Part shown: positions 3 through 53,038 of the stretch, one piece after another | How positions within the stretch are numbered: the stretch's first letter is position 1 | Layout of the letters: each line of letters begins with the position of its first letter | DNA from: Candidatus Hydrogenedentota bacterium | GTDB taxonomy: Bacteria; Hydrogenedentota; Hydrogenedentia; Hydrogenedentales; SLHB01 | Assembly (NCBI GenBank): GCA_016215105.1 | Contig: JACRLJ010000089.1 | Coordinates: forward strand, 7,096-69,840 | DNA length: 62,745 nucleotides | Direction of reading: 5' to 3' | Program-made: the position numbers and the translations under genes | Notes under the pieces: model-generated | What the model was told of the DNA's origin: nothing | What the model saw: the letters and a program-made list of their open reading frames with translations, nothing else | Databases searched by the model: none

Positions 3-377
3 GCGCTGAGAACAAAGTTCCCGCTGATCGGCCTGTTTACTGTCGCCGCAGTGACGCTGGAGCTGACAGCGAACGTGCTCTTGTTCGCCGCATTCGGATG
101 GGCGGTTCCGTTCGCGGCGGTCGCGATGGCAAAATGCGCGCACGGTATTATTGCCGCGGTACCGTTTACACCGAGCATCAGCGGCGTTCCCTACGTGATG
201 ACGGCGGTGCTCTTGTATCAAACCGTCGGGGTCCCGTACGAGACGTTGATCGTGTCGCTCGCGGCGAAGGAAGCGTTCGCCAATGTCGTCTTCTGGACGT
301 CTTTTGGGGGCGCAACACTGGACATAGCGGGCCGAAGCAGCAAGACCATGCGGGCGGGTGGGTCACATAATGGGTGA
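3..377 (+). CDS. Flippase-like (UPF0104/AglD-type) membrane protein, C-terminal part
   Basis: The frame is open from the window edge, so the true start lies upstream. The visible part of about 124 residues is hydrophobic, with three likely membrane spans. It contains a Pro/Gly-rich stretch (AAVPFTPSISGVPYV) followed by a helix beginning TAVLLYQTVGV, which resembles the end of lysylphosphatidylglycerol-synthase/flippase-like membrane domains. Proteins of this class often sit in glycan-assembly loci and are thought to act on lipid-linked intermediates. The stop overlaps the start of the next glycosyltransferase gene, so the two are probably co-transcribed. The family call rests on pattern only; substrate unknown. 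Confidence 0.5.
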   Translation, partial: ALRTKFPLIGLFTVAAVTLELTANVLLFAAFGWAVPFAAVAMAKCAHGIIAAVPFTPSISGVPYVMTAVLLYQTVGVPYETLIVSLAAKEAFANVVFWTSFGGATLDIAGRSSKTMRAGGSHNG

Positions 378-879
378 AGCTACTACGTCGTCATCGCTCA
401 CGATCTGCTTGGTATGTTCTCATGGCGGGCATTTGGCGGAAATGCTGCAACTTGGCGACGCGTTCGCCGGACATGCCGTTTTCTACTTCTGTTACGACGC
501 GGATACCACGCGGCGTCTTCCGGATGCGTTCCGGGTTTCCAATCGCCCCTACAGTCCGTTCGAGTTTCTGCGCAATCTAGGACGGGCGATCCGGATCTTC
601 CGCCGCCGGCGCCCGGACTTAGTCGTATCGACGGGCGCGGAAATCGCGATACCGGTCGTTCTTGTGGCCAAAGTCTTCCGCACACCCGTCATCTACATCG
701 AGTGTGGCGCCCAGGTGGCGCGTCCTTCTGTGACGGGCCGCATCCTCTACTATTTGGCCGATGAATTCTATGTGCAATGGCCTGAACTCCTGCGCGCCTA
801 TGGTTCCCGCGCGCGCTTCGAGGGAAGCCTCGTGGACGAGGTGAAGTCGATACCGCGTCAAGGTGGCGCAGAGATATGA
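370..879 (+). CDS. Alg14/PssD-like glycosyltransferase subunit
   Basis: A protein of 169 residues beginning near ICLVCSHGGHLAEML, the glycine-rich SxGGH loop at the N-terminus of Alg14, PssD and CpsF-type proteins. In that family this half anchors the partner to the membrane and the two together transfer a sugar from a nucleotide donor to a lipid-linked acceptor. The segment PDLVVSTGAEIAIPVVLVAK is the matching second Rossmann strand-helix. An in-frame GTG lies four codons upstream at 358; ATG 370 is preferred because it overlaps the previous stop more tightly. The downstream gene, overlapping by ATGA, is the Alg13-like partner, which strongly supports the call. Confidence 0.85.
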   Translation: MGEATTSSSLTICLVCSHGGHLAEMLQLGDAFAGHAVFYFCYDADTTRRLPDAFRVSNRPYSPFEFLRNLGRAIRIFRRRRPDLVVSTGAEIAIPVVLVAKVFRTPVIYIECGAQVARPSVTGRILYYLADEFYVQWPELLRAYGSRARFEGSLVDEVKSIPRQGGAEI

Positions 880-49349: not shown

Positions 49350-50645
49350 TTAGTGGCTGGTCTTTTCGCGTTTTTTGGCCGAGGTGGTGGCTGGCGCGGC
49401 TTTGCTTTCGATTGGCGACTTCGCAAGCAGCAGCGCGACGGAGTTGGTTCCCCACAATGCCACTCCGAGATCGGCGCGTCCGCTCTTATCGAAATCCGCG
49501 GCGCACAGCGCTCGCGGGTGTCCCTCCTTGAAGGGGTAGGACTCCCGTTCAAATTGCTGCGGGATGCCCGCGTTCGGGGAATCGTTTGTCAAGAGAATGA
49601 CTTGGTTCGACGCGAAACACGCCGCGGCAATGTCCTTGCGCTTGTCCCCGTTGAAGTCCTCAACCAGGATATCTCGAATCTCGTGCTCGATGGAGCGATG
49701 ATCCTTTCCCAAATGAATCTCCTGCGAAAGCGGGAAGTCAACGCCGCCCTCGCCGTAAAAAATCACGATGGAATCATCGGCGCTGCAATGGGAAACGATG
49801 AGGTCCGGCTTGTCGTCGCCGTTGACGTCGGCGATTCGGATCTTGTGTGGAAGGTTTCCGCGGCTCGAGAAGTGGTTTACTTCAGTGAATCCTCCGGCGC
49901 CATCGCCTTTCCAGATGGCAACCGTTCCGCTGGAATACATGGTGGTAACGACGTCCAGTTTCCCATCCCCGTCGAGGTCGGCCGCCGCGATATCTCGTGG
50001 ACCACCCGCCGCGGGAAAGAATTTCGGCTCGCCAAAATGGGTCTTGTCATTTCCGGGAAGGTAGACCAGGGAATCGCAACTCCAGGCCGTGGCGATCACA
50101 TCTCTGAACCCGTCGTGGCTGAAGTCGGCAATCGCGATCGAGGTGATTCCCGGTTTGGCGAACACGGGCTGATCGTCGGCGTCGCGTTGTTTGGTGTAGG
50201 GCAACCCGTCGGAAGGAATCGCGAATTGGTCGGGTTCGAATAGGTTTTCGCCGATGTTGCGGAAGAGCGTTACCGCCTGCTTGTTCGACGCGAGAAAACT
50301 GCCGACGACAATGTCCAGCGCCTTGAGCGCGTCAATATTCGCGATGACGACGGAGTAGGGGGCGAATCCCGCGCGCAACGGCGGTTGTGAGATGTAAAGG
50401 AGGTCGCCTTGCGCCACCAGGAACGACAATTCGTCGTTGGCGGGACGCTCGTCACGCGGGCTGGATAGGTTTCCAATATCGCACGTGATAATCTCGGGCC
50501 AGCCGTCACCATTAAGATCGCCGGCGGCGATAGCGGACGGGTTGGGACCCACCTGGTAGGACCTGGGATGGCGCGTAAATGTCTCCGGCCCGGCTGCTGC
50601 GGCGCCGATGAGAAGGATACCGATAGAGAAAAGAAGTGGCTTCAC
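49350..50645 (-). CDS. Exported FG-GAP/VCBS-repeat protein
   Basis: 431 residues with a signal peptide (LLFSIGILLIGAAAAG). Six calcium-binding-type repeats are readable: DLNGDGWPEI, DFSHDGFRDV, DLDGDGKLDV, DVNGDDKPDL, DFNGDKRKDI and DFDKSGRADL, spaced about 55-65 residues, making a beta-propeller like FG-GAP/integrin-alpha repeats. Likely a secreted or surface-bound protein; function unknown. The last motif has lost one Asp. Start ATG 50645 follows AAGGAAAC. It lies nine bases downstream of pdxA on the same strand. Confidence 0.85.
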   Translation of the reverse strand: MKPLLFSIGILLIGAAAAGPETFTRHPRSYQVGPNPSAIAAGDLNGDGWPEIITCDIGNLSSPRDERPANDELSFLVAQGDLLYISQPPLRAGFAPYSVVIANIDALKALDIVVGSFLASNKQAVTLFRNIGENLFEPDQFAIPSDGLPYTKQRDADDQPVFAKPGITSIAIADFSHDGFRDVIATAWSCDSLVYLPGNDKTHFGEPKFFPAAGGPRDIAAADLDGDGKLDVVTTMYSSGTVAIWKGDGAGGFTEVNHFSSRGNLPHKIRIADVNGDDKPDLIVSHCSADDSIVIFYGEGGVDFPLSQEIHLGKDHRSIEHEIRDILVEDFNGDKRKDIAAACFASNQVILLTNDSPNAGIPQQFERESYPFKEGHPRALCAADFDKSGRADLGVALWGTNSVALLLAKSPIESKAAPATTSAKKREKTSH

Positions 50646-50654
50646 AAAGTTTCC

Positions 50655-52208
50655 TTACTTCGTTGTGTTCGGACGGCGCCGCGCAAACTCGGCGGCGAGC
50701 CGCAGCGCGGCGAGTAGGCTTTCCTCGCGGGCGACACCTTTTCCGGCGATGTCATAGGCGGTGCCGTGGTCTACGGAGGTGCGGACGATTGGGATTCCCA
50801 GCGTAACGTTGACACCTTCGTCCATTGCGATGAGTTTGAGCGGCACGTGGCCTTGATCGTGATACATGGCGACCACCAGATCGAATTCGCCGTCCCGCAT
50901 TCGCCGGAAGATCGAGTCTGCCGGGTACGGACCCGAACAGTCGATGCCTTCGGCCTGGGCGGCGCGAATGGCCGGTTCGATCTCGTCGATCTCTTCGCGG
51001 CCGAAGGCGCCGGCTTCTCCGGCGTGAGGGTTGAGTCCGGCGACGGCGATGTGGCGGCGCGGCAAATCCAGACGGCATAACGCATCGTGCGCCACACGAA
51101 TCGTAGTGAGGATGCGGTCCTTCTTCACTTGGTCGATAGCGTCTCTCATTGACAGATGCGTGGTGATATGGACGATACGCATGTTCCCCGCGAAGAGGCT
51201 CATGGTATAGTCCGGCGCGCCTGTCATTTCGGCGATAAGTTCGGTATGGCCGTTGTAGTGGTATCCCGCCTTGTGGATGCCTTCCTTATTGATGGGGCAG
51301 GTGACGATGCCGTCCACGACGCCATCCATCGCGAGACGAACCGCGGCTTTGGTCCATTCGACGGCGGCTCGGCCTGCTTCGGGGTCAAGTTGGCCGGGAT
51401 GATGTGGCGGCGCAGAGATTCCGGCTTCGTAGACTGGAACAGTGGAGAAGCGTTCGATCGCTGGAATGCCAGCGAAACGTTCGAAGCCTGGAATTGCAAG
51501 TAAGCGCTCTAGTGCCGCGACTGTGGTGTCTCGTAGGTCGTAGTACATTTCGAGCGCACTGTTGATTTCCTTCGGCGTGGCGACTTGAACGTCCACCGGC
51601 CGATCCAGCAGACGCTCCAGATTATCCAGTAAACTTGTGTTCGTGGGGTCTTCTGTTGCGACTACGAGCCGGCCTGCGTTTTCCGCGACCGGAATCACTC
51701 GGTAGACCTGGGCGACGGCAGGATCAATGAGGCGGAGCACCTCGTCTGGAATCTTTTGTTTTGATAGGCTTACGAGGGGAATATTGAGGTTCTCCGCCAA
51801 CCTTTCGCTGTAATCATTCCCTTTGTAGGTTCCTTTAGGAGTGTAGCCTGAGAAGGTTACTAACCTGCGAACGGAATCGGATGACATGCTCTCCTGGGTG
51901 GAACGGATTGATTCATCTTTATCCGGAGTGGAGTCGTGAGCTTTGCCGTCCTCTCGGGTCTGCCCAGGAGACGAATCGTCACGGGTATCGTCGAGTTCTG
52001 CGCGCGATACGTTGTCAATTCTTCGGAGAAGCGGGCGGTAGGGAGTGAATTCCTGGGCGGATTCGAGTGCATGGATGTCTCCGACTACCAGCGGCACGCA
52101 GACATTGTGGATCTCCGGATGTCCGAGCGCCTTAGCCAAGATTTCGGGACCGACGCCATTTACATCACCCATCGTGATGGCCAGTATGGGTTTTCTCTCT
52201 TGGGTCAT
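50655..52208 (-). CDS. pdxA: 4-hydroxythreonine-4-phosphate dehydrogenase with inserted MshEN/T2SSE_N-like domain
   Basis: One uninterrupted frame of 517 residues; PdxA is normally about 330. Residues 1-60 (AITMGDVNGVGPEIL, LVVGDIHAL) and 265-517 (IVTCPINKEGIHKAG, GHTELIAEM, LNPHAGEAGAFG, YHDQGHVPLKL, RTSVDHGTAYD) are PdxA, with the three metal histidines H321, H395 and H450 present. Between lie about 170 residues: a charged, low-complexity linker (67-105), then at 133-223 a segment (RLAENLNIPLVSLSKQKIP, VIPVAENAGRLVVATEDP, DVQVATPKEINSALEMYYD) matching the GspE/PilB N-terminal (T2SSE_N/MshEN) domain. PdxA makes the vitamin B6 precursor AHAP. The insert may be regulatory. Confidence 0.9.
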   Translation of the reverse strand: MTQERKPILAITMGDVNGVGPEILAKALGHPEIHNVCVPLVVGDIHALESAQEFTPYRPLLRRIDNVSRAELDDTRDDSSPGQTREDGKAHDSTPDKDESIRSTQESMSSDSVRRLVTFSGYTPKGTYKGNDYSERLAENLNIPLVSLSKQKIPDEVLRLIDPAVAQVYRVIPVAENAGRLVVATEDPTNTSLLDNLERLLDRPVDVQVATPKEINSALEMYYDLRDTTVAALERLLAIPGFERFAGIPAIERFSTVPVYEAGISAPPHHPGQLDPEAGRAAVEWTKAAVRLAMDGVVDGIVTCPINKEGIHKAGYHYNGHTELIAEMTGAPDYTMSLFAGNMRIVHITTHLSMRDAIDQVKKDRILTTIRVAHDALCRLDLPRRHIAVAGLNPHAGEAGAFGREEIDEIEPAIRAAQAEGIDCSGPYPADSIFRRMRDGEFDLVVAMYHDQGHVPLKLIAMDEGVNVTLGIPIVRTSVDHGTAYDIAGKGVAREESLLAALRLAAEFARRRPNTTK

Positions 52209-52221
52209 TCGCTCTTTTCGT

Positions 52222-52851
52222 TCAGTTTGCGTCTAGCGCGTCGTAGACCGCCAAGGCCATGAGCATATGTCCATTGCTCGAAGGATGTACCCCGTCCGCG
52301 GTCCACTTGCGACTTGGATTGGCGTGGATTGCGTTCCAGAAGGCGCGATTGATCGGAACCAGGGTCGCCTTGAATTCGGCGGCCAGGGCGTTCACACACT
52401 GCACATAGGGGCCTGTCAGTTTGTTGTGAGGGGTGTCGAGCGTTTCGCCGTTGATGCCCGGTTCGAGCAGGAGTAACTTGCAGTGCAATTCTTTCACAAC
52501 GGGCGTCAGCAAACGGCGGTAGGTCGCCTCGAATTCGTCAATCATGACCTCGTCAGGATTGCGGGGGGTCTGTAATTGCCGCCACACGTCGTTAACACCA
52601 ATGCTGATACTGAGCCAGGTGGGACGATGCGCCAAGACATCGCTTTGCCAGCGCCGGTCGAGATCACGGATAGTATCGCCGCCAATACCCTGGTTTACGA
52701 CGTCCACGACAAGACTGGGATGCCGGGCAGCGAGCACGTCTCGGAACATGCGAACATAGCCTTGGCCGAGCCCATCCGGGTCCTCCCGGCGCCCAGCGTC
52801 GGTAATACTATCGCCAATAAAGAGGATCTTGTCTCCGGATTGCAGTCTCAT
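52222..52851 (-). CDS. GDSL/SGNH-family lipase or esterase
   Basis: 209 residues from ATG 52851, with AAAGGA five bases upstream (a longer start at 52917 is possible). SGNH blocks: FIGDSITD with nucleophile Ser, NQGIGGDTI (Gly), SIGVNDVWR (Asn) and DGVHPSSNGH with the catalytic Asp/His. Small cytoplasmic members hydrolyse esters of sugars or lipids. It starts directly upstream of the pdxA start on the same strand (13 bases), so both may be co-transcribed. No signal peptide. Confidence 0.9.
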   Translation of the reverse strand: MRLQSGDKILFIGDSITDAGRREDPDGLGQGYVRMFRDVLAARHPSLVVDVVNQGIGGDTIRDLDRRWQSDVLAHRPTWLSISIGVNDVWRQLQTPRNPDEVMIDEFEATYRRLLTPVVKELHCKLLLLEPGINGETLDTPHNKLTGPYVQCVNALAAEFKATLVPINRAFWNAIHANPSRKWTADGVHPSSNGHMLMALAVYDALDAN

Positions 52852-53038
52852 GCGTGTCCTTTCCTTTGTGCGGGTTGGGGGGCCGATCTTGACGAAATCC
52901 GGATCGAATTGCAACACGGTGCTCTACTCCAGCGCGTCGCCGGTGTCCTCGCGTTTGGAGCGGGTACGCAAGAATGAGGGCGCAATGCGGTACAATGCGG
53001 GCGTGTTGTTTATCCCACTCAAGGAGTACCAGTAGAAA

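Follow-up and report, generated by a model that had tools for sequence, protein, structure and literature searches.

The gene pdxA of a 'Ca. Hydrogenedentota' genome, located within the window (the whole analysed stretch of 62,745 nucleotides), contains an in-frame insert homologous to the N-terminal region of the type IV pilus ATPase PilB. Probably, a segment of pilB was copied in frame into the only pdxA of this genome, the enzyme remained in working order, and the insert is tolerated by it and does not serve as a c-di-GMP sensor. The presence of the insertion, its homology to PilB, the intact PdxA parts and the conserved locus were established by sequence comparison. The gene and its enzyme parts are as follows:

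50655..52208, minus strand: pdxA with the inserted MshEN/ND1 domain, 517 amino acids (open reading frame, PdxA and MshEN Pfam matches, PdxA equivalog)
51981..52208, minus strand: PdxA N-terminal part, residues ~1-76 (alignment with the ordinary PdxA of relatives; AlphaFold pLDDT mostly >90)
50655..51440, minus strand: PdxA C-terminal part, residues 257-517 and the stop codon (Pfam, alignment; AlphaFold pLDDT mostly >90)
51156..51158, minus strand: metal-binding histidine H351 (invariant column)
51024..51026, minus strand: metal-binding histidine H395 (invariant column)
50859..50861, minus strand: metal-binding histidine H450 (invariant column)

Translation gave an uninterrupted frame of 517 codons exactly at positions 50655-52208 of the minus strand; an earlier note on this DNA, made from the sequence alone, had described the same stop-free frame, leaving the strand unstated. 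The same note had recognized PdxA on both sides of a foreign domain, which holds true, but its limits, residues 1-60 and from about 265, are replaced by ~1-76 and ~257 according to the alignment. The Pfam family PF04166 (PdxA) matches residues 255-505 with an E-value of 3e-102, the score for the NCBIfam equivalog TIGR00557 is 350 bits at a cut-off of 290.35, which places the protein in PdxA, and in a sequence search of the PDB the PdxA structure 4jqp was matched in two stretches, residues 6-74 and 261-512. In the family alignment, 72 of 73 near-invariant PdxA columns are kept, as well as all three metal histidines, as had been noted earlier; H351, H395 and H450 are presumably the equivalents of H166, H211 and H266 of E. 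coli PdxA. Mean identity of residues 257-507 to the family members is 0.678, which falls within the range of the members themselves (0.629-0.691); together with the retention of the near-invariant columns, this indicates that the enzyme part is not decaying. The PdxA search of the host genome revealed this copy as the sole PdxA. PdxJ was found in the genome, while the PdxS family is absent from the assembly, which is ~95% complete.

The immediate neighbourhood of pdxA is represented by two genes:

52222..52917, minus strand: GDSL-like hydrolase gene directly upstream of pdxA (Pfam; same position in two of the eight relatives examined, L195 and L196)
49350..50645, minus strand: FG-GAP repeat protein gene directly downstream of pdxA (Pfam; also follows pdxA in all eight relatives examined)

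The gene order MoxR-DUF58-TgpA-FG-GAP-PdxA is common to the host and its relatives, and in some of them GDSL and dnaA are also present; genes of MoxR, DUF58, TgpA-transglutaminase and dnaA were found near pdxA in most of the eight loci with contigs reaching far enough. Accordingly, the single copy of pdxA, the presence of PdxJ, the absence of PdxS, the kept residues and the conserved locus show that pdxA is native and vertically inherited, and that the enzyme carrying the insert is very probably functional in vitamin B6 synthesis.

The insert and its parts are arranged as follows, in the order of the protein:

51441..51980, minus strand: insert, residues ~77-256, ~540 bp, lacking in all other PdxA compared (alignments, phylum searches)
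51918..51980, minus strand: polar low-complexity linker, residues 77-97 (sequence; pLDDT mostly <50)
51510..51917, minus strand: homologue of the PilB N-terminus, residues 98-233, comprising a degraded ND0 arm and ND1 (blastp, tree)
51789..51917, minus strand: degraded ND0, or c-di-GMP-binding arm, residues 98-140, strict and relaxed motifs absent (motif scan, alignment)
51528..51788, minus strand: MshEN Pfam domain, i.e., the MshEN_C / ND1 core, residues 141-227 (PF05157, E 6e-21)
51441..51509, minus strand: C-terminal linker of the insert, residues 234-256, with the near-repeat IPGFERF/IPAIERF (sequence)

The T2SSE_N/MshEN domain that had been proposed for residues ~133-223 was detected by Pfam within the ~180 inserted residues, with a score of 74.6 bits at a gathering cut-off of 23.1; this match is far beyond chance. 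The NCBIfam PilB model matches residues 125-231 of the protein, and PilB chains in the PDB match residues 96-226 in a sequence search. The T2SSE ATPase domain (PF00437) was not found, since no Pfam family other than PdxA and MshEN scores above the cut-off in this protein; no intein-type domain was detected by Pfam.

Alignment with PdxA of related genomes and of further GTDB loci showed a clean insertion: in PdxA of the relatives, the columns equivalent to residues ~76 and ~257 either follow each other directly or have a few residues between them, and not a single PdxA residue was lost. Residues 56-76, directly before the insert, are the fastest-changing part of PdxA, with a mean identity of ~20% versus 56% and 66% in the flanking regions. 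Repeats around the insertion are short, and neither a target-site duplication nor a mobile-element signature was found there; the Rfam search of the region matched neither introns nor other RNAs, and the promoter and terminator scans gave nothing above chance. The near-repeat IPGFERF/IPAIERF in the 3' linker possibly arose by a small tandem duplication. A compensated frameshift was considered for the aberrant residues 113-135, but the other two frames contain no PilB-like reading by eye, and the stretch was therefore taken to have diverged in frame and to have gained an insertion of 5 residues.

The structure of the full chain was predicted by AlphaFold with an alignment of 50 PdxA homologues, containing no homologues of the insert. 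In the model, 280 residues have a pLDDT of at least 90, essentially within the two PdxA parts, and the insert is placed between the helix of residues 69-74 and the strand of residues 257-260, in agreement with the earlier proposal that it occupies a loop of PdxA; the enzyme parts look intact. The Foldseek search with the full-chain model ranked PdxA structures first, with TM-scores by target of 0.83-0.90 among the top eleven. The pLDDT of the insert is ~30-65, and this low confidence is explained by the absence of insert homologues from the alignment; folded alone, the insert gave a pLDDT of 43. The order of its predicted elements is alpha/beta, as in MshEN_C, a likeness based on the known fold and the description of ND1 in PMC8389850.

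The two parts of the PilB-like region have changed differently. The nearest PilBs were taken as the ancestral state, residues 141-233 as the core and residues 95-140 as the arm, and substitutions were compared with a neutral simulation without stops. Conserved columns were kept in 28 of 40 cases in the core and in 4 of 21 in the arm (Fisher p 0.0003). Core substitutions are conservative relative to the simulation (mean BLOSUM62 +0.30 versus -0.66, sd 0.36, p ~0.002), while those in the arm are indistinguishable from it (p 0.44). Within the core, conserved columns are not better kept than variable ones (28/40 versus 17/28, p 0.45). The data therefore point to selection on the core without proving it; the absence of stops in the insert says little, since selection on the downstream PdxA alone would remove them. 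The ND1 core appears to have changed as if it still had to fold.

The main functional alternative is protein docking, in which ND1 would attach PdxA to a PilM-like partner or another platform protein of type IV pili, as ND1 of PilB/EpsE does. In solved complexes, ND1 contacts GspL/EpsL, the paralogues of PilM, and, mostly, PilZ (PMC8389850). PilM-family genes are present in the genome, with a weak match ~2.5 kb from its own pilB on contig C18, and the conservative change of the ND1 core speaks for docking. At the same time, the fusion is absent from all related genomes, and no need for B6 synthesis placed at the pilus base is known; docking by analogy with PilB is unlikely. A fuller version, in which the docking domain of the pilus ATPase holds or controls PdxA at the type IV pilus machinery by protein contact, independently of c-di-GMP, is decidedly doubtful.

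With regard to the origin of the insert, the blastp search with residues 98-233 showed 46% identity to the host's own PilB and ~40-49% to PilB of relatives. PilB homologous to the insert occurs across the phylum, including the host's own copy, and in most genomes of the phylum one and the same PilB is the top match to the insert query; outside the window, the matches are mainly PilB/GspE-type frames and a few short MshEN frames. A maximum-likelihood tree places the insert within the PilBs of its own family, next to the host's own PilB, with support of 95/76 and 90/66 for the nested branches. Its terminal branch is 2.88 versus 0.39 for the own PilB, and because long-branch effects were flagged by the tree program, the exact placement was taken as moderate evidence. 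A search of viral contigs for relatives of MshEN or PilB, meant to enlarge the alignment for structure prediction, revealed none.

Instead of the lineage's own pilB, the source could have been a diverged paralogue or an MshEN gene standing by itself. Such a stand-alone gene exists in genome G027 (L191, with 39% identity to the insert), and the long branch of the insert would fit this origin. However, the tree separates L191 from the PilB group, in which the insert is nested, and homology of the insert to PilB runs past MshEN into the beginning of the PilB linker (DTTVAAL versus DTTVESM), making this source quite unlikely. Most likely, the donor was the lineage's own PilB, the ATPase of type IV pili, and not GspE; of the GspE/PilB-type origin named in the earlier note, blastp and tree uphold PilB. 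The simplest history would be the copying of a pilB segment into pdxA within the lineage, followed by fast change.

The distribution of the insert was analysed in 68 genomes of 'Ca. Hydrogenedentota'; PdxA was found in 62 of them, one in each, and the insert is absent from PdxA of all 61 other genomes. The best 80 PdxA loci from GTDB species genomes also lack it, as their match spans are all below 1.1 kb. No further genome of the host's genus was present among the phylum and GTDB searches, and the insert is known from one genome. Accordingly, PdxA-MshEN is a domain insertion specific to this lineage and made up of known parts, and not the conserved architecture that had been envisaged for related genomes.

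Such a distribution would also be expected if the insert were a misjoined piece of another gene or strain, as the relatives have ordinary PdxA and the assembly is fragmented (171 contigs, 95.2% complete, 2.6% contaminated). The earlier note had named exactly these two circumstances, ordinary relatives and a local assembly join, as grounds for dropping the fusion; the former was found, but the latter is very improbable, since the frame is kept across both junctions over 517 codons with no loss of PdxA residues, and no near-identical copy of the insert occurs elsewhere in the assembly (best protein identity 46-48%). In addition, the GC content of the insert (0.54) resembles that of the PdxA N-terminal part (0.56), and the contrast between arm and core is unlike a piece of intact PilB.

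The least probable explanation is regulation of PdxA by c-di-GMP, suggested by the binding of this nucleotide by MshEN in many proteins with diverse fused outputs (PMC5013675), because binding requires two 24-residue motifs in the N-terminal arm (PMC5013675), the scan of the whole PdxA protein with the motif definition of the same paper gave zero strict and zero relaxed matches, confirming the motif loss noticed earlier, the changes in the arm look neutral, and even the PilBs of the phylum, the parental family, keep at most the second motif.

According to the preferred reading, that of a tolerated PilB-derived insert, a piece of pilB encoding ND0-ND1 (MshEN) would have been copied in frame into the native, sole pdxA, at a place where PdxA has a loop that evolves fast and varies in length. 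Most likely, the enzyme can still fold with this loop enlarged and makes vitamin B6; the inserted ND1 core would have been preserved as an alpha/beta domain capable of folding, and the ND0 arm, which binds c-di-GMP in MshE, apparently decayed. The retention of the core and the decay of the arm suggest that the insert is most probably an additional domain that the structure tolerates; it would serve at most for protein docking and not as a c-di-GMP sensor. The protein is best read as a working PdxA that bears a folded ND1 domain in a loop permissive to insertion.

This case represents a traceable, probable move of a whole domain within one lineage, out of one native gene and into the interior of a second, which encodes a probably essential enzyme. 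Both the donor family and the acceptor are known, as are the insertion point and relatives with an uninterrupted gene. The case also reveals that, with MshEN freed from the ATPase, ND1 is retained and the c-di-GMP arm lost. If docking is true, a new link between B6 synthesis and the pilus machinery would be represented; if there is no docking, the insert would be a gauge of the tolerance of a core enzyme loop.

Other genes with MshEN were also found in the genomes studied. The host genome contains a 791-residue frame (L014, G000:C24:95203-95412, minus strand) joining MshEN (residues 146-215 of the translated part) to a DnaA-type ATPase domain (residues 554-710 of the same part), a combination that was seen only in part and looks unusual. 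In the same genome, MshEN is present in a Ser/Thr protein kinase (L001), which has two c-di-GMP motifs of the relaxed form, in three HDOD proteins (L008, L010 and L016) and in several T2SSE ATPases. The stand-alone gene L191 (positions 117-605, minus strand, G027:C150) is a frame of 163 residues in which MshEN is the sole domain, and it is related to the PilB group; a second short MshEN frame, L192 in G060, looks frameshifted.

Compared with known systems, the protein is similar to PdxA, 4-hydroxythreonine-4-phosphate dehydrogenase (PF04166/TIGR00557; E. coli 1PS6, Burkholderia 4JQP, Klebsiella 6E85), in the full enzyme sequence, the metal histidines, the near-invariant positions, the predicted fold and the gene neighbourhood typical of its phylum, but differs in ~180 extra residues in the loop between the helix 69-74 and the strand 257-260. 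The insert shares with MshEN/T2SSE_N (PF05157; X. citri PilB, Geobacter PilB 5TSG, V. cholerae MshE 5HTL) the sequence of the ND1 (MshEN_C) core and homology over most of the N-terminal region; unlike in PilB and MshE, the domain is located inside a metabolic enzyme, has lost the c-di-GMP motifs of ND0 and is accompanied by no ATPase domain. Its closest group in the tree is the PilB of Hydrogenedentota, represented in the host by its own copy (G000:C18, L005/L137), with 46% identity over residues 98-233; PilB, however, is a pilus ATPase with a 628-residue frame, and many PilBs of relatives keep the second c-di-GMP motif. A report of MshEN inside a biosynthetic enzyme was not found in a non-exhaustive literature search. 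In other MshEN fusions, namely, with kinase, HDOD, receiver and the glycosyltransferase NfrB, MshEN is likewise a module joined to other domains, but in those scanned it adjoins the other domain or occupies one end of it, and the outputs belong to signalling or secretion.
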